Shown here: in pieces, positions 5,798 to 23,639 of the stretch
How the letters are laid out: each line of letters opens with the position of its first letter
How positions within the stretch are numbered: the stretch's first letter is position 1
Assembly (NCBI GenBank): GCA_024742695.1
Contig: JANSXY010000010.1
Coordinates: 1-64,000 of the forward strand
Origin: Paracoccaceae bacterium
GTDB lineage: Bacteria; Pseudomonadota; Alphaproteobacteria; Rhodobacterales; Rhodobacteraceae
Direction: 5' to 3'
DNA length: 64,000 nt
Translations under genes and position numbers: made by a program
The notes under the pieces: generated by a model
Database searches by the model: none
What the model was told of the DNA's origin: nothing
The model's input: only the letters and a program-made list of their open reading frames with translations

Positions 5798-7084
5798 ATG
5801 CGCTGGTTGCATGGGCGTATCGCGCGCGGATCGGTCGCGACCCTGGCCATCCGCCTGACGGCGCTGGGGCTTGGGTTCCTCCAGACGCTCATCCTCGCCC
5901 GCCTCCTCGGCGCGGACAGCTACGGCCAGGTGGTCTCGGTCGTCTCGATCGCGACGCTCGCGGCCTGGATAGGGGTTCTTGGGCTGAACAGTCTCGCCGT
6001 GCGCGAGATCGCGCGGTTCCGCCTTCGTGGCGATGCCGCCGCGGAGAACGGCTTCCTGAGGTTCGCCCTCTTCGCGGTCGCGGCGTTCGCGAGTTTCGCG
6101 GGGCTTGCTGCCTGGGCACTCGCTGCACCATCGCTGCCCGGGATTGGACGCTGGATCCTCGTGCTGACCCCTATGATTGCCGTGATCCTCTTCTTCCGGG
6201 GCGCATCGCTCGGACAGGGCCGGGTAATCGCGTCGCAGGCCCCACTCGACGTCCTGAGACCGGCTCTGTTCCTGTCGGCCGTCACGATCGTAACCATCTC
6301 GGGCAGTCTGGGCGCGCCGACCGCGATTGCGCTGAACACCGCCGCCTTTGCCGCGGCGATGATCGCAGCTCTGCTCCTCGGGCGGCCGTCGGGCGCCGAG
6401 GTTCCCTCTACCCTGCCCTCAGGCGCGGGTCTTCTAAAGAGCGCACTGCCCTTCTACCTGGGCGGCGTTTTCGCCTCGCTCCAGTCCGAGATGATGGTGC
6501 TGATGCTCACGGTCCTCTCGACGCCAGAACAGACCGGCCTGTTCCAGATCGCGTTTCGGCTCAGCACGCTCCTCCTCGTTGTAAGGCTAGCCATCGACGT
6601 CCCGTTGGGGCCCCGCTTCTCCGCAAGCTGGGAACGGGGTGAGAGAGAAGACGTTGAGCGGCTCGCGAGCCTTTCCGCGGCAACCTCTACCGTGTCGGCC
6701 CTGCTGATCTGGTTCGCTCTCTTCTTGCTCGGCAGGCCTCTGATCTCCCTCTTCGGGCCGGATTTCGTCGCCGCGCAGGACAGCCTCATGGTGCTTGCAG
6801 CCGCTCAAATCCTTTTCGTCTCTGCAGGTCCTCTGCCCGTCCTGCTGAACATGGCCGACCGATCCGGCGTCGTCACGTGGGCGTTGGCAGGCGCGCAGGT
6901 GGTGCAGGTTCTCTTCGGCCTATTTCTTGTTCCCGACATGGGCGCATTAGGTGCAGCGCTGGCGATGTCGGCCGCGATAGCCGCCTGGACGCTGACCATG
7001 TGGCTTGCCACGCGCCTTAGTCTTGGTCTCAAGGTCTCGCCCCTGCACGGTCTGCTGATCTACGCGCGAAGGGGGCTCAGGTAG
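5798..7084 (+). CDS. Wzx-like polysaccharide flippase (MVF/MATE-like fold)
   Basis: 428 residues, almost all hydrophobic, with 12 or so predicted membrane helices and the N-terminal pattern RLTALGLGFLQTLILARLLGA typical of O-antigen/teichoic acid flippases. It would move lipid-linked oligosaccharide from the inner to the outer leaflet for polymerisation. It is the last gene of the plus-strand arm, and its 3' end overlaps by 8 bases the 3' end of the opposing glycosyltransferase. No polymerase (Wzy) or chain-length regulator (Wzz) is visible in the window. Confidence 0.8.
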   Translation: MRWLHGRIARGSVATLAIRLTALGLGFLQTLILARLLGADSYGQVVSVVSIATLAAWIGVLGLNSLAVREIARFRLRGDAAAENGFLRFALFAVAAFASFAGLAAWALAAPSLPGIGRWILVLTPMIAVILFFRGASLGQGRVIASQAPLDVLRPALFLSAVTIVTISGSLGAPTAIALNTAAFAAAMIAALLLGRPSGAEVPSTLPSGAGLLKSALPFYLGGVFASLQSEMMVLMLTVLSTPEQTGLFQIAFRLSTLLLVVRLAIDVPLGPRFSASWERGEREDVERLASLSAATSTVSALLIWFALFLLGRPLISLFGPDFVAAQDSLMVLAAAQILFVSAGPLPVLLNMADRSGVVTWALAGAQVVQVLFGLFLVPDMGALGAALAMSAAIAAWTLTMWLATRLSLGLKVSPLHGLLIYARRGLR

Positions 7085-8222
7085 CGGAGGACGATCGGCC
7101 TATCGAGGCTTCCGCCAGTTCAAGGCAGACGCGCGCCGGGAGGTCATCCGAAAACGCCTCTTCTGCCCGCTTCCGGGCAGCAACGCCCATCTCCTCAAGC
7201 TGAGCCGCCGCCATGCGAAGAACGTCCCGCATCGCCTTGGCGAGCGCTTCGGGGTCTCCGGGAGGGCAGAGCCACCCATTCAGTCCTGGCACCACGGCAT
7301 CGCGGCACCCTGGCACATCGGTCGCGATCACGGGGCGACCCGAGGCCGAGGCTTCCAAGATGACCTTCGGCATGCCCTCGCCGCCATGCGACGGCACGAC
7401 AAGCGTCGTTGCGCGAGCAAGCCAAGGGCGGACATCTTCGCACTGTCCGACGAACTCCACGATGCCTTCCCGGCGCCAGCAATCCAGTTCGACATCACTC
7501 ACGGCGCCACTGTTCGCGTGCCGGGTATCTCCCACAACGACGAACCGAACAGAGGGGGACTCCTTGCGAACCAGCGCTGCTGCAGCGACGAAGTCGTGGA
7601 TACCCTTGTCGCGTTGTAGGCGACCGACGAACAGGAAGCTTTGTCCCCGGGGGTCCAGCCGGCCTTCCGGCCTGAAATACGCGAGATCGACGCCCGACCC
7701 CATGACCTGATGGATTGGCAACCGTGGCGAAAGCCCGTTGCGCCTGAGAAACTCGAGATCCGCCGTGTTCTGCACGATCAATGCCACGCCGCCCGAACAA
7801 GCGAAGCTGTAGAGACGGGCCAGGCCGGACGCGACGATTCCTTGCCTCGACATCCTCATGCCAAGACCAGAAACGACATTTGCGTATGGTATTGATCGCC
7901 CGCGGCAACACAGGCCGCCATAGACATTGGCCTTGATGCCATGGTTCAGCACGAAGTCTGGCTCTTCCCTCCGCAATATGCCAGCCAGACTTCGAAGTGA
8001 CGCGGCCTCTTCCAAGGGCATGGCGCCGTCGAGCGAGACGGGCCAGCGGACGTAGCTCGTGCGCTCCAGCGCCGAAAGCCTTTCGGTCCACTCGTCCTCG
8101 GGGGCGACGGCGCAGATCTGCCATCCGCTTGCCGCGAAATGGCGAACCAGGTTTCGTCGGAAATTCCAGAGATACCAAGACGAGCCGGCACAGAGCATGA
8201 CTTTCGGCGCGTTCGGCGTCAC
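7077..8222 (-). CDS. GT4 family glycosyltransferase
   Basis: 381 residues with two Rossmann-like domains. The C-terminal half shows FLFVGRLQRDKGIHDFV, then GGEGMPKVILEASASGRPVI with the EX7E-type donor site, then GLNGWLCPPGDPEALA, the classic GT4 tail. It adds a sugar from a nucleotide donor to a lipid-linked or saccharide acceptor. A GTG start at 8222 overlaps the upstream methyltransferase stop (GTGA); longer readings run back into that gene in the wrong frame. It is the last gene of a tightly overlapping three-gene minus-strand operon (9178-10218, 8219-9181, 7077-8222). Confidence 0.85.
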   Translation of the reverse strand: MTPNAPKVMLCAGSSWYLWNFRRNLVRHFAASGWQICAVAPEDEWTERLSALERTSYVRWPVSLDGAMPLEEAASLRSLAGILRREEPDFVLNHGIKANVYGGLCCRGRSIPYANVVSGLGMRMSRQGIVASGLARLYSFACSGGVALIVQNTADLEFLRRNGLSPRLPIHQVMGSGVDLAYFRPEGRLDPRGQSFLFVGRLQRDKGIHDFVAAAALVRKESPSVRFVVVGDTRHANSGAVSDVELDCWRREGIVEFVGQCEDVRPWLARATTLVVPSHGGEGMPKVILEASASGRPVIATDVPGCRDAVVPGLNGWLCPPGDPEALAKAMRDVLRMAAAQLEEMGVAARKRAEEAFSDDLPARVCLELAEASIGRSSSAT

Positions 8223-20192: not shown

Positions 20193-20516
20193 CTACAGAA
20201 GTTCCGCCTGCACCGCCTTGGCCCAGCCAAGGTGCAGCGCGTCGCCCGCGCGGATCACCGGGCGTTTCATCAGCGTCGGATGGGCGGCGATCAGCGCCTC
20301 GGGGCTGCCGGCGCGGTCGGCCTCGGGCAGCTTGCGCCAGGTCATCGAGGCGCGGTTGACGATCTTCTCGCCGAAGGCGGTGACGAATTCGGCGCGCTCG
20401 GCCCCGGTCAACGGCTCGGCGCGCACGTCGCGGAACGTCACGTCATGGCCCGCGGCCTTCAGCGCCGCGATCGATTTCTTCACGGTCTCGCAGGTCGGAA
20501 TCCCGTAGACGATCAT
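20193..20516 (-). CDS. ArsC/Spx/YffB family thioredoxin-fold protein
   Basis: 107 residues of the ArsC-like fold: MIVYGIPTCETVKKSI has one cysteine (C9) in the redox position, and LMKRPVIRAGDALHLGW is the conserved C-terminal motif (RPVI). It resembles YffB/Spx-like proteins more than true arsenate reductases. No ars genes are nearby. Function may be thiol reduction or transcription control; not decided. Confidence 0.8.
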   Translation of the reverse strand: MIVYGIPTCETVKKSIAALKAAGHDVTFRDVRAEPLTGAERAEFVTAFGEKIVNRASMTWRKLPEADRAGSPEALIAAHPTLMKRPVIRAGDALHLGWAKAVQAELL

Positions 20517-20585
20517 GCTGCCCCCCTTTCGCCGGCGGCAGGCTAGCGCGGGCGGCGGGCCGGGGAAAGACCGGAACGGCCGGTG

Positions 20586-20885
20586 TCAGGCCGGATCGGC
20601 CGGGGCGGCGAGATCGGCCCATGATTCGCCCATCGCCACCACGCAGGACCGGCCGGTGGCGTAGCGTTTCACCAGCGTCCAGTTGCCCGAGGTGGGCGAG
20701 GACCAAAGCTCCATCACCGCATCGGGGCCGTGCATGCCAATCCCTTGTTGTGTCTCGCCGAACTGCTGTTCCAGCTTGCGGTGCAGCACCTCCGACCGGT
20801 CGCAGTAGAGATCGGCGAACGGCCCCTGCGCGGCGACCGGGCCAGCCAGCGGCAGGAGGGCGAGAAGCGCGAGAACGCGGTGCAT
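20586..20885 (-). CDS. Small exported protein of unknown function
   Basis: 99 residues with a signal peptide (LALLALLPLAGPVAAQ, likely cut after VAA) and a mature part of about 80 residues with two cysteines (LYCDRSEVL and GRSCVVAMGE) that could pair. WSSPTSGNWTLVKRYATG suggests a small beta-rich fold. Similar short proteins occur in Rhodobacterales without a known role. It lies just beside the A+T-rich GHKL gene but has ordinary high-G+C codon use. Confidence 0.65.
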   Translation of the reverse strand: MHRVLALLALLPLAGPVAAQGPFADLYCDRSEVLHRKLEQQFGETQQGIGMHGPDAVMELWSSPTSGNWTLVKRYATGRSCVVAMGESWADLAAPADPA

Positions 20886-20959
20886 GGCCGGGTTCCTTCA
20901 TGACTGTTCGATGACAGGATCGTAACAGGTTCATGAAGATTTGGTAGTGACATACGTGC

Positions 20960-22702
20960 CTAGCCAATCAAACGCCCCGCAGGCTTATCTGCAGAAAGCA
21001 ACCGGGAAAGGCAGCAAATTCGAATGGGTCGCGTAGGCCCTAGCGTTAGGGAGAAATGGAAGAAAGGCTCAGTCGTTTTCGTTAAGCCTGGCTCCACCTC
21101 TTGCAGATCCAACCCTCGCGATTTGACCACTTCATAATCTTGATCAACAATATCCCAAACAACAACAATATCAATCTGGTCGAAGAGTTTGACCTCATCG
21201 TCGAAGTCTCGGAACAGAGAGGAAAGATGATATTTGAACTCGATTACCACGTCGGATGTCTTTAGCTTTGCATACAGATCGTACTTGTTTTTATATCCAG
21301 AGATATATGGCCTAATATCCTTGATGACGCCGCCGCCAAGGAGCTCAAAAAATATAGCAGCAACAGTCGCTTCCTGACCTGCCGGCCTTTTTATGAAGCA
21401 AGTATTTGAGTTCTCGAGGTCGGGCAGATCCCTAATTGCATTGAACACCCCACTGCGGTCCCATTCTTCATCAACTAGATCCGGCTCACCACCGATATAT
21501 TTTTTTATTCCGTTGATAAAGTCGCGGAACACATCAGATGCAACATCTCGCAGCATACCCAATTGACGGCTAGCAATAGCTTTGCGCCCGATGTCAAATG
21601 AAAGCTGCGGGTCATCCAATATTATAAAGAAGTTTGGAAGATAGCCTGCAGACCCCTTCGCCCGCATATCCGAGCGGATCCCCGTGGGCATACCCCTCGT
21701 ACAAGTAAACATCCCCCCGGAAAACAAATACTCCGCCTCACCATAGGCATCAATCCTCTCAACAGGGCCCAAATCAAGAATCTCATCATCAACAAGCTTG
21801 GACTTGGCCGAGATTGTATCCCAAACCCTTCTCTTGGGAACAAAACAAGCCCAAAACCTGATCGACCTACCGGCCTTCTGCCTTTGTCCCTCCATAAAAA
21901 TCAGCTTGTCTCGTAGTTTCTGACGCTTCTGCGCGTCAGTTTTTTCACCAGTGTTCCAATCTTGAAAATCACGCAGCGAAATGAACTGCGTTTCACCAAG
22001 GGCTTCAGTCGGCAAAAGATACCGGCAGTCGATTTCCTCTTTGCGAGTCTGACCATCTAAACTTCTGAAGGTAAGCAGAAAGTCCTTGTTTGGCTTCGCC
22101 CCCCAGATTACTCGCGTATCTCCCAATGCCGTGCGCGTCCGGAGTATCATGTCGAGCTGCCTGAAGCTTAATTGAAAAAAGTCGTAATCCTTTTCAATTG
22201 GAAGCCTTACTGTAATTGTAGTGCCAATACCTTCCCCCGCCTGAACGCGCTCAAACTCGAGCTCCGGAAGGTCTTCAGATTTCGCCTCGACCCATGCCCA
22301 TGCACCTTCAATCTTGGCGCGTGCGGAACCTGACGCATGATGGCTTTTGACTTCAAAACTCGCAGACGAAAAGATCACAAAACTAAGCCCTACCCCTTTC
22401 TGTCCTATCAAATCTGGGCGTTCAAGCTTCGCACTTGAGAACGGGGCGAGTAGCGAGGGGAGCTCGTTCGGGTCAATTCCGCAGCCATTATCCTGTACGA
22501 CTATAGATCTTGCTATCGCGTCAATCGAGACATGGATATGCCCTTTAACTGGCGATGCTATTGTTATCGCATCCACTGCGTTCTGCGTAAGCTCCGCCAA
22601 CAAGTCCCAATCATGATTGTAGGACTCGATGATGTTACGAACCTGATGCCTTATTTGATGCGCATTCGGTGTAAGAAAATCGACGCGACTAGCCACAGCC
22701 AT
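20960..22702 (-). CDS. GHKL ATPase with C-terminal PD-(D/E)xK-like motif, candidate defence protein
   Basis: 580 residues. The N-terminal GHKL ATP site is complete: N box ELTQNAVDA (Glu37, Asn41), G1 DNGCGI (Asp71), G2 IGQKGVGLS (100-107) and a G3-like GIGTTI (about 160). The C-terminal part has YDLYAKLKTSDVVIEFK, giving Asp475, Glu488 and Lys490 in the spacing of a PD-(D/E)xK nuclease site, followed by a hydrophobic strand IDIVVVWDIV. The gene is strikingly A+T-rich: 19/60 and 28/60 G+C in two stretches (21121-21180, 22321-22380) against 41/60 in thyX next door. It is alone, with no integrase or tRNA. Related layouts occur in MORC/MutL-like ATPases; a defence role is inference. Confidence 0.7.
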   Translation of the reverse strand: MAVASRVDFLTPNAHQIRHQVRNIIESYNHDWDLLAELTQNAVDAITIASPVKGHIHVSIDAIARSIVVQDNGCGIDPNELPSLLAPFSSAKLERPDLIGQKGVGLSFVIFSSASFEVKSHHASGSARAKIEGAWAWVEAKSEDLPELEFERVQAGEGIGTTITVRLPIEKDYDFFQLSFRQLDMILRTRTALGDTRVIWGAKPNKDFLLTFRSLDGQTRKEEIDCRYLLPTEALGETQFISLRDFQDWNTGEKTDAQKRQKLRDKLIFMEGQRQKAGRSIRFWACFVPKRRVWDTISAKSKLVDDEILDLGPVERIDAYGEAEYLFSGGMFTCTRGMPTGIRSDMRAKGSAGYLPNFFIILDDPQLSFDIGRKAIASRQLGMLRDVASDVFRDFINGIKKYIGGEPDLVDEEWDRSGVFNAIRDLPDLENSNTCFIKRPAGQEATVAAIFFELLGGGVIKDIRPYISGYKNKYDLYAKLKTSDVVIEFKYHLSSLFRDFDDEVKLFDQIDIVVVWDIVDQDYEVVKSRGLDLQEVEPGLTKTTEPFFHFSLTLGPTRPIRICCLSRLLSADKPAGRLIG

Positions 22703-22733
22703 CTACTCCTTCACTCGTTAACCCGAAACGTCG

Positions 22734-23639
22734 TCAGTCAAAGGTACCACAAAACTCCCGCCACTCGCCCTTCGACATGCCCGACGTCTCCGCCGTCACA
22801 ACCTCACCGTGCAATCTCCTTTTCAAAACGTCAATCGCCTTGGCCGACAGCGTCACGGCGCCCAGCCGGTAATCCTCGAAGGCGGCGTAGGCCAGCGGCA
22901 CCCAGTCCTTCACGATCTCGCACATCACCTCGGCATAGGCGCGGATTTCGTATTGCGCGTGGCTGTCCGCCCTGAGCCGCAGGAAATGGAAGAGGTTGTG
23001 CAGGTCGATCTTCCAGTACCACTGGGTATAGACATTGGCGGGCAGGTTCATCCGCGCGAGTTCGCGGGCCAGGCCCTGCTGGCCCTCCTGGCTCAGCATC
23101 GCCTCGTAATGGTCGTAGGCGCGGGTGGCGTCGTCGCGCAGAAGGTCCAGCACCCGCTGCGCCTCGGCCCCTTCCAGCACCGCGCCGCGGCCCTGGTTGT
23201 TCACCGTGGATTGCGCGGCGAGGTGTTCGGGCGCGGGGATGTAGAATTCGCGGTCGAGGATCGAGTAGCGGGCGGAATACTCGTTCACGTTGGCGGTGCG
23301 GTGGCGGATCCACTGCCGGGCCACGAAGACCGGCAGCTTGACGTGGAACTTGACCTCGCACATCTCGAAGGGCGTGGAATGCCAGTGCCGCATCAGGTAG
23401 CGGATCAGCCCCTCGTCGTTCGACACGTGTTTCGTGCCCGCGCCGTAGCTGACACGGGCGGCCTGGGTGATCGCGGCGTCGTCGCCCATGTAGTCGATCA
23501 CCCGGATCAGCCCGTGGTCCAGCACCGGGTGGGCCGCGTAAAGCCGCGCCTCCATCCCCGGCGCGGTGGCGCGCAGCGTGGCGGTCTGGCGGGCGCGCTG
23601 CGCGGCGATCTCGGCGTGCTGGTCTTCGGTCAGGGGCAT
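22734..23639 (-). CDS. thyX: Flavin-dependent thymidylate synthase
   Basis: 301 residues with the ThyX signature [30 protein letters not shown] before it, and [19 protein letters not shown] as the C-terminal FAD and dUMP region. It converts dUMP to dTMP with FAD, NADPH and methylene-tetrahydrofolate. The ATG at 23639 ([12 protein letters not shown]) is preferred; a longer frame runs into low-complexity sequence. It ends 31 bases from the GHKL start on the same strand. Confidence 0.95.

Follow-up and report, generated by a model that had tools for sequence, protein, structure and literature searches.

The window analysed here, a 64,000-nucleotide stretch of a Paracoccaceae genome, contains a solitary gene whose product is probably a horizontally gained, single-protein defence nuclease, that is, an ATP-gated clamp-nuclease like VcSduA of Vibrio cholerae but with a different nuclease. 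By analogy, the protein probably acts in defence against phages or other invading DNA, because it is related, as a rare and distinct form, to an anti-phage design that was described recently.

The open reading frame has an ATG start and no internal stops, and a search of its own genome with the protein returned the gene itself as the sole match. The N-terminal part matches the Pfam HATPase_c family above the cut-off (Table 1), and the rest of the protein has no Pfam match over the cut-off. The GHKL motifs are E37xxxN41xxD44, D71-N-G-x-G75 and G100-x-K-G103. The motif residues are invariant in an alignment of 12 members (the window protein, the relatives L002, L031 and L032, and eight members of a second group, termed B); measured identities of the 11 relatives to the window protein are about 21–58%. 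The invariant positions of the N-terminal and middle parts are Y28, D33, E37, N41, D44, D71, N72, G73, G75, G100, K102 and G103, followed by G160, T191, G194, W294, G330, G353, D370, G372, R373 and K374. The best 25 of the 39 NCBIfam matches were of the GHKL type, all below cut-off. PADLOC yielded weak GHKL matches to TmtA, which we take to be the protein of the Tiamat system, and nothing more. Identity with TmtA was rejected: the matched models are 1063–1782 positions long and just about 50–110 residues match, the best stretch placing residues 37–122 of the query on positions 52–134 of a 1538-position model.

The full-length structural model (mean pLDDT 51.6) was too weak to use except around the GHKL domain, and the middle domain was modelled poorly. 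The ATPase part of this model aligned with the ATPase domains of GyrB and Hsp90 with Z-scores of up to 14.6. By analogy with MutL and gyrase, E37 is read as the catalytic base. D370-x-G-R-K374 is a candidate S5 motif with K374 as transducer lysine, in a region modelled at low confidence. The role of the lysine is assigned by analogy with MutL, gyrase and MORC proteins.

Because the full-length model was too weak, the C-terminal domain was folded alone, from six sequences. The resulting model (pLDDT 71.6, pTM 0.74) has a helix at 32–44, strands at 51–55, 64–68 and 71–80, a helix at 82–89 and a strand at 100–105 (model numbering), in the order alpha-beta-beta-beta-alpha-beta, as in the core of PD-(D/E)xK nucleases. 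E444 opens the first helix, D475 immediately precedes the second strand, and the third strand carries E488 and K490. Only seven columns past residue 400 are invariant in the 12 members (E444, L454, Y474, D475, E488, K490 and K505), and the five of these that are E444, D475, E488, K490 and K505 exceed what is expected by chance. The predicted active site comprises D475 and E488-x-K490, and would be completed by E444 and K505.

Structural searches with the domain model gave weak matches. In Foldseek, EndoMS and NucS headed the list at E values of 0.069 or worse, and no match at E ≤ 0.001 was obtained in PDB or BFVD. With VIA-align 2, the best match was LlaBIII (Z 4.2, rmsd 4.5, 119 residues aligned), followed by Pyrococcus NucS (Z 4.0, rmsd 3.6, 89 residues), EndoMS (Z 3.6, rmsd 3.8, 92 residues), Can2 (Z 3.5, rmsd 4.0, 117 residues), DdmD (Z 3.5, rmsd 4.2, 94 residues), EcoT38I (Z 3.5, rmsd 4.4, 114 residues), and Ecl18kI and AspBHI (both Z 3.1). 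Judged from titles or general knowledge, we assume that 11 of the top 13 entries are nucleases or nuclease-bearing proteins (LlaBIII, NucS, EndoMS twice, Can2, DdmD twice, EcoT38I, Ecl18kI twice and AspBHI). The seventh is a TBP-interacting protein, and clearly different folds appear from the fourteenth entry onwards (Z 2.9). All entries are below Z 5, the nucleases barely exceed the remainder, and the best Z of 4.2 is lower than 7 to 8, the usual ceiling of the tool, in a large set, for models without a clear match. As the close entries are tied and such Z-scores may reflect a common arrangement only, the structure backs the reading of the motifs without proving it. Taken together with the motif, the C-terminal domain is a probable restriction-type PD-(D/E)xK nuclease. 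The original prediction had placed full GHKL motifs at the N-terminus and a D..ExK triad at residues 475–490; both are found where it placed them, and the C-terminal region, for which a nuclease fold had been proposed, indeed models as a nuclease-type core, with structural matches of Z 4.2 or less.

Table 1. Features of the ATPase-nuclease gene and its flanks (window positions).
Feature	Position	Strand	Basis
Whole GHKL ATPase-nuclease gene, 580 aa	20960..22702	-	Open reading frame; single match in own genome; relatives
GHKL (HATPase_c) domain, residues 34-170, with E37, N41, D44, D71-G75, G100-G103	22193..22603	-	Pfam PF02518, E=1.2e-11; invariant motifs; fold matches
D370-I-G-R-K374, candidate transducer (S5) lysine motif	21581..21595	-	D370, G372, R373, K374 invariant (n=12); low model confidence here
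PD-(D/E)xK-like nuclease domain, residues 413-580	20963..21466	-	Domain model, pLDDT 71.6, pTM 0.74; weak matches, top ones mostly nucleases
Predicted catalytic core Y474-D475 ... E488-F-K490, residues 474-490	21233..21283	-	Y474, D475, E488, K490 invariant (n=12); domain model
E444, helix glutamate of predicted nuclease core	21371..21373	-	Invariant (n=12); first residue of model helix 32-44
31-bp gap past the thyX stop, with GAAGGAG Shine-Dalgarno-like sequence just 5' of the ATG	22703..22733	-	Sequence; no promoter- or terminator-like site in the gap
Stretch from thyX to the 99-aa gene, 1,848 bp versus about 80 bp in L055; contains the insertion	20886..22733		Flank comparison; G+C falls at both edges

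The composition of the gene differs from that of its surroundings. Its G+C content is 48.5%, compared to a mean of 68.4% (sd 3.0, minimum 60.6%) for 58,264 equally long sliding windows elsewhere; GC3 is 0.51, and that of thyX 0.90. Among 60-mers, the lowest G+C count in the gene is 19/60, and the average in thyX is 40/60. Nine of the ten genes of relatives that were compared with their surroundings were also poorer in G+C (that of L031 just slightly), the exception being L032. The five neighbours in the window scanned with Pfam encode ThyX, a 99-residue protein without a match, an ArsC-family protein, a glyoxalase and a DoxX protein, none of which is a defence gene. No tRNA gene was found in the window, and no flanking repeats were detected between 20701–21050 and 22601–22850 (exact words, direct of at least 8 or inverted of at least 9). 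A scan of positions 20400–23200 returned four terminator-like sites (3.3 expected), including a minus-strand site at 20996–20975 at the 3' end of the gene, and four promoter-like sites (1.3 expected), none of them between thyX and the ATPase-nuclease gene; the sites were not used as evidence.

The locus was compared in relatives by searching 81 genomes for thyX, which was present in 58; 30 neighbourhoods were compared, one of them being the window itself. In the other 29, no ATPase-nuclease was found within the 1.5 kb of flanking sequence on each side, the flank of L063 being nearly absent on the relevant side. An arsC-family gene is present downstream of thyX, as in the window, in 8 of the 29 (L044, L049, L051, L055, L057, L059, L062 and L065). 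A listing of open reading frames between thyX and arsC in eight relatives used a filter of GC3 > 0.7, which misses even the 99-residue homologue of L055. In L055, about 80 bp downstream of thyX comes the gene for a homologue (49%) of the window's 99-residue protein; in the window itself, the gene of that protein stands beyond the ATPase-nuclease gene relative to thyX. As thyX directly precedes this homologue in L055, its gene order represents the empty site and the window gene the insertion. The foreign composition, the absence of the gene from loci that keep the thyX-arsC order and the mobile or restriction-rich settings of its relatives (see below) indicate, at the level of sequence, that the gene is a recent, horizontally acquired foreign one with the appearance of defence cargo. 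The original prediction had described it as A+T-rich, solitary and recently gained, which agrees with these data; the gene is neither syntenic nor vertically inherited in the family (294 genomes, 29 thyX loci).

In three loci the gene directly follows another gene on the same strand. In the window it starts 31 bp after thyX and in L002 52 bp after a 678-residue open reading frame, and in the third locus (L070:7721-11667, G438:C1) a B-group gene lies 83 bp, counted to its first possible start, behind thiC. Read-through from host promoters into the gene is thus possible.

A search of genome contigs with the window protein yielded one relative, in a metagenome-assembled genome of the Pseudomonadales (L002; 58% identity over residues 2–569). 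Three more were found in plasmid records, from Lactiplantibacillus plantarum (L031; 31%), Priestia megaterium (L032; 23%) and Halobacterium (residues 17–194 only). The Halobacterium plasmid matches residues 8–522 of a B-group protein at 26.5% (L033:5935-7512) and the annotated gene is shorter (6079–7086, 335 residues); this could represent a split or wrongly annotated member from archaea. Within the family, 28 of the 295 genomes (own included) gave a match at E ≤ 0.001, and none of the matches in the 294 other genomes extends past residue 144. Those of L009–L030 are single N-terminal matches, and L008 resembles, by eye, a hybrid histidine kinase. Group B proteins have about 657 residues and the same architecture. 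L067, L068 and L069 are intact, L007 is a 124-residue fragment, and L071 stops at 158 residues just before genes that by eye resemble transposases; this copy (L071:5773-7650, G099:C67) seems to be inactivated by insertion. Profiles of the nuclease domains of the window group and group B align with a probability of 97.4% (hhalign, E 1.2e-11), and on this sequence basis the two groups are homologous in the nuclease domain too.

Wider searches returned few additional members. In overlapping samples of the class (385 genomes) and phylum (398 genomes), a four-sequence profile at E ≤ 1e-15 found the own genome and the B member G438 alone (full gene: L070), and the B-group profile at E ≤ 1e-20 again found G438 alone in the 398 phylum genomes. 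Two Rhizobium rhizogenes plasmid records carry group B genes (57.5% identity to L067), as do four IMG/VR contigs found with B-group queries, one gene being identical to that of L069. The 50,697 phage records contained no relative of the window protein or of the B-group protein L068, and no viral contig was retrieved with the window protein, the Lactiplantibacillus protein, alignment A1 or the L068 protein. The gene is thus rare and scattered.

The company of several relatives is defence-like. In L002, five of six scanned neighbours match PADLOC models at E ≤ 1e-5, and the surroundings comprise the PADLOC candidate PDC-S11 (E 6e-134), type I HsdR, HsdS and HsdM, and an AbiJ-like protein. On the Rhizobium plasmid, 4/5 scanned neighbours match (a UvrD-type helicase found with the RTasHel and GajB models, Vsr, PDC-M26A and a C5 methylase), and on the Priestia plasmid also four out of five (an AAA_5 ATPase, weakly, Vsr, a type II endonuclease and a methylase), at about 4 kb and more from the ATPase-nuclease. 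These fractions are not a sample, because the neighbours were picked as relevant-looking, and the neighbourhood evidence comes from few, chosen loci since, apart from the own gene, a single relative was obtained from the class and phylum samples. In the genome G038, a serine resolvase is present on one side of the ATPase-nuclease and a tyrosine integrase on the other, as in an integrative element; about 3.4 kb from the ATPase-nuclease this stretch also encodes a tubulin/FtsZ-family protein (L067:3631-5454, G038:C12; PF00091, E 1.8e-9), whose gene could also serve the element in conflict or segregation. The 9.2-kb plasmid of the L031 relative has nine annotated genes, this one included, and encodes a YafQ / RelB-DinJ toxin-antitoxin pair. 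From inspection of the translations by eye, L075 is presumably surrounded by P2-like tail and lysis genes, and L076 presumably lies near terminase and primase genes. The L075 gene (4980–6950) is on the strand opposite to the tail and lysis genes, a spot where P2-like phages might carry cargo. Relatives at other loci, where the original prediction had proposed to look for the same gene, were observed on plasmids and phage-like contigs, in an integrative element and beside type I restriction genes. Its suggestion of an anti-phage role gains from this company, the function itself being predicted from sequence and analogy.

The relation to Shedu nucleases was assessed with profiles of the C-terminal domains, which were built from small sets of 4, 8, 5 and 7 rows for the window group, group B, GHKL-Shedu or similar proteins (L088, L090–L093) and classical Shedu proteins found with PF14082 (L078–L084), respectively. 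In the positive control, GHKL-Shedu and classical Shedu aligned with a probability of 95.9% (E 6.2e-9). The window group gave 0.2% against either set; group B gave 0.2% against GHKL-Shedu and 4.2% (E 0.0098) against classical Shedu, and the pooled window and B profile 0.2% and 0.4%. As the control worked and the profiles gave 0.2%, the domain is, by sequence, not detectably a Shedu nuclease. SduA is absent among the PDB structures listed for the domain model, which is no evidence of differing folds, and a remote link is to be expected given the shared superfamily. In the Rhizobium plasmid L093 (1453–4614), a GHKL-Shedu-like gene is directly followed by a gene annotated as encoding a Shedu immune nuclease family protein.

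In principle, the window protein could still be a diverged Shedu type I-D or VcSduA-like protein, with a DUF4263 nuclease that has drifted beyond detection. The domain order and single-gene habit are the same, and Shedu nucleases are likewise of the PD-(D/E)xK type with varied N-terminal domains, according to the account of VcSduA (PMC12137116). Even the GHKL-Shedu protein L088 scores just 26.9 bits against the 27-bit cut-off, and the E value of 0.0098 for group B points in the same direction. An unrooted tree does not recover the present group as monophyletic apart from GHKL-Shedu, which joins L032 with a support of 77; however, the GHKL-Shedu proteins are a separate clade (support 100) at the end of a long branch, and their attachment to L032 is taken as long-branch attraction. 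Neither the window protein nor any of the seven relatives scanned matches PF14082 at E ≤ 1, the full-length profiles align with GHKL-Shedu solely over the GHKL domain (95.5%), and the 0.2% of the window group contrasts with 97.4% against group B and 95.9% in the positive control. We therefore consider a drifted DUF4263 nuclease unlikely.

The same low likelihood is given to a role as a weapon between mobile elements, such as anti-plasmid activity or prophage exclusion, instead of host anti-phage defence. The members on small and large plasmids, in the integrase/resolvase stretch and on phage-like contigs fit such a role; however, none of the 19 tyrosine integrase matches in the own genome is on the window contig (C47), and anti-element and anti-phage uses overlap. 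That the gene has recently landed and is non-functional here would agree with the broken or partial state of the two relatives L071 and L007, but the window gene is full length, has all invariant motif residues and is preceded by a Shine-Dalgarno-like sequence, so that we regard decay as very improbable. The GHKL domain resembles that of MutL, and a repair function was once suggested for standalone proteins of related design (PMC2292703). A MutL-type repair or housekeeping enzyme is nevertheless the least probable reading and hardly to be expected: the MutL equivalog model TIGR00585 scores 24.8 bits against a cut-off of 180, by which MutL identity was rejected, and rarity, absence from the locus in relatives and foreign composition argue against it.

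For the defence nuclease that we favour, the following mechanism can be envisaged. Two subunits, each with ATP bound in its GHKL domain at the N-terminus, would encircle DNA like the clamps formed by MutL, MORC and gyrase subunits, with D370-x-G-R-K374 supplying the transducer lysine through which the middle domain responds to the ATP state. When the clamp closes on invading DNA, or on some form of DNA characteristic of infection, it would position and activate the PD-(D/E)xK nuclease, which with E444, D475, E488 and K490, assisted by K505, would then cut the invading DNA; host DNA would presumably be spared. A C5 methylase (PF00145) was not matched in the own genome, and 10 of 14 control genomes gave a match. 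More tentatively, and with somewhat less confidence than doubt, we propose that the proteins constitute a separate, unnamed lineage of GHKL clamp-nucleases that realizes the GHKL-Shedu design via a different nuclease, i.e. a one-polypeptide, ATP-gated restriction enzyme requiring no cognate methylase and sensing DNA topology or replication state. No description of this lineage was found among the titles and abstract openings listed, a scope that leaves most subscription journals outside.

If a second, unrelated nuclease is indeed placed under the same type of ATPase, the GHKL clamp would be a sensor module open to reuse, and a comparison of the two lineages could test which signal it detects (DNA shape, ends or a phage protein). 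A first set for this purpose is offered by the members from Proteobacteria, from Firmicutes and perhaps from a haloarchaeal plasmid.

MutL, MORC, gyrase B and Hsp90 share with the window protein the GHKL ATPase fold and a probable transducer lysine. They are ATP-driven clamps with a different nuclease or none, and have housekeeping or chromatin roles. The likeness to Tiamat TmtA consists of the weak PADLOC matches to its GHKL domain. Shedu proteins (SduA, PF14082) have catalytic residues of the PD-(D/E)xK type and varied N-terminal domains, but their nuclease domains have no significant sequence or profile link to the present one (best 4.2%). The closest parallels are paraMORC3 and VcSduA. In the 2008 description (PMC2292703), paraMORC3 combines a GHKL domain, a predicted S5 domain and a C-terminal restriction-fold domain with an E-D-ExK signature in one protein; paraMORC3 is laterally mobile and includes a standalone subset, found mainly in proteobacteria and bacteroidetes, for which functions outside restriction, perhaps in repair, were suggested. 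The window protein likewise has the GHKL ATP-binding motifs and the invariant E444, D475, E488 and K490; the paraMORC3 S5 domain with its basic finger may correspond to the invariant D370-x-G-R-K374, but this region is modelled at low confidence. The comparison is with the published description of paraMORC3.

VcSduA, reported in 2025, pairs a GHKL domain with a Shedu DUF4263 nuclease and protects against phages; this protection depends on the glutamate of the ATPase and the lysine of the nuclease, and is abolished by E27A and K557A (PMC12137116); a GHKL ATPase can thus be paired with a defence nuclease. The same source ties GHKL-nuclease proteins like VcSduA to paraMORC3 and Shedu type I-D. 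Both VcSduA and the window protein are products of single genes with an N-terminal GHKL ATPase and a PD-(D/E)xK-type nuclease domain in one protein, and by motif position, read from the published mutations, E27 and K557 would correspond to E37 and K490. VcSduA is anti-phage by assay, whereas the window protein is known from its sequence, and its nuclease is not detectably DUF4263. The original prediction that the gene fits no named defence system holds in this last respect and not for the overall design: what sets the window protein apart is its nuclease, and the GHKL-nuclease design is already known from paraMORC3 and VcSduA.
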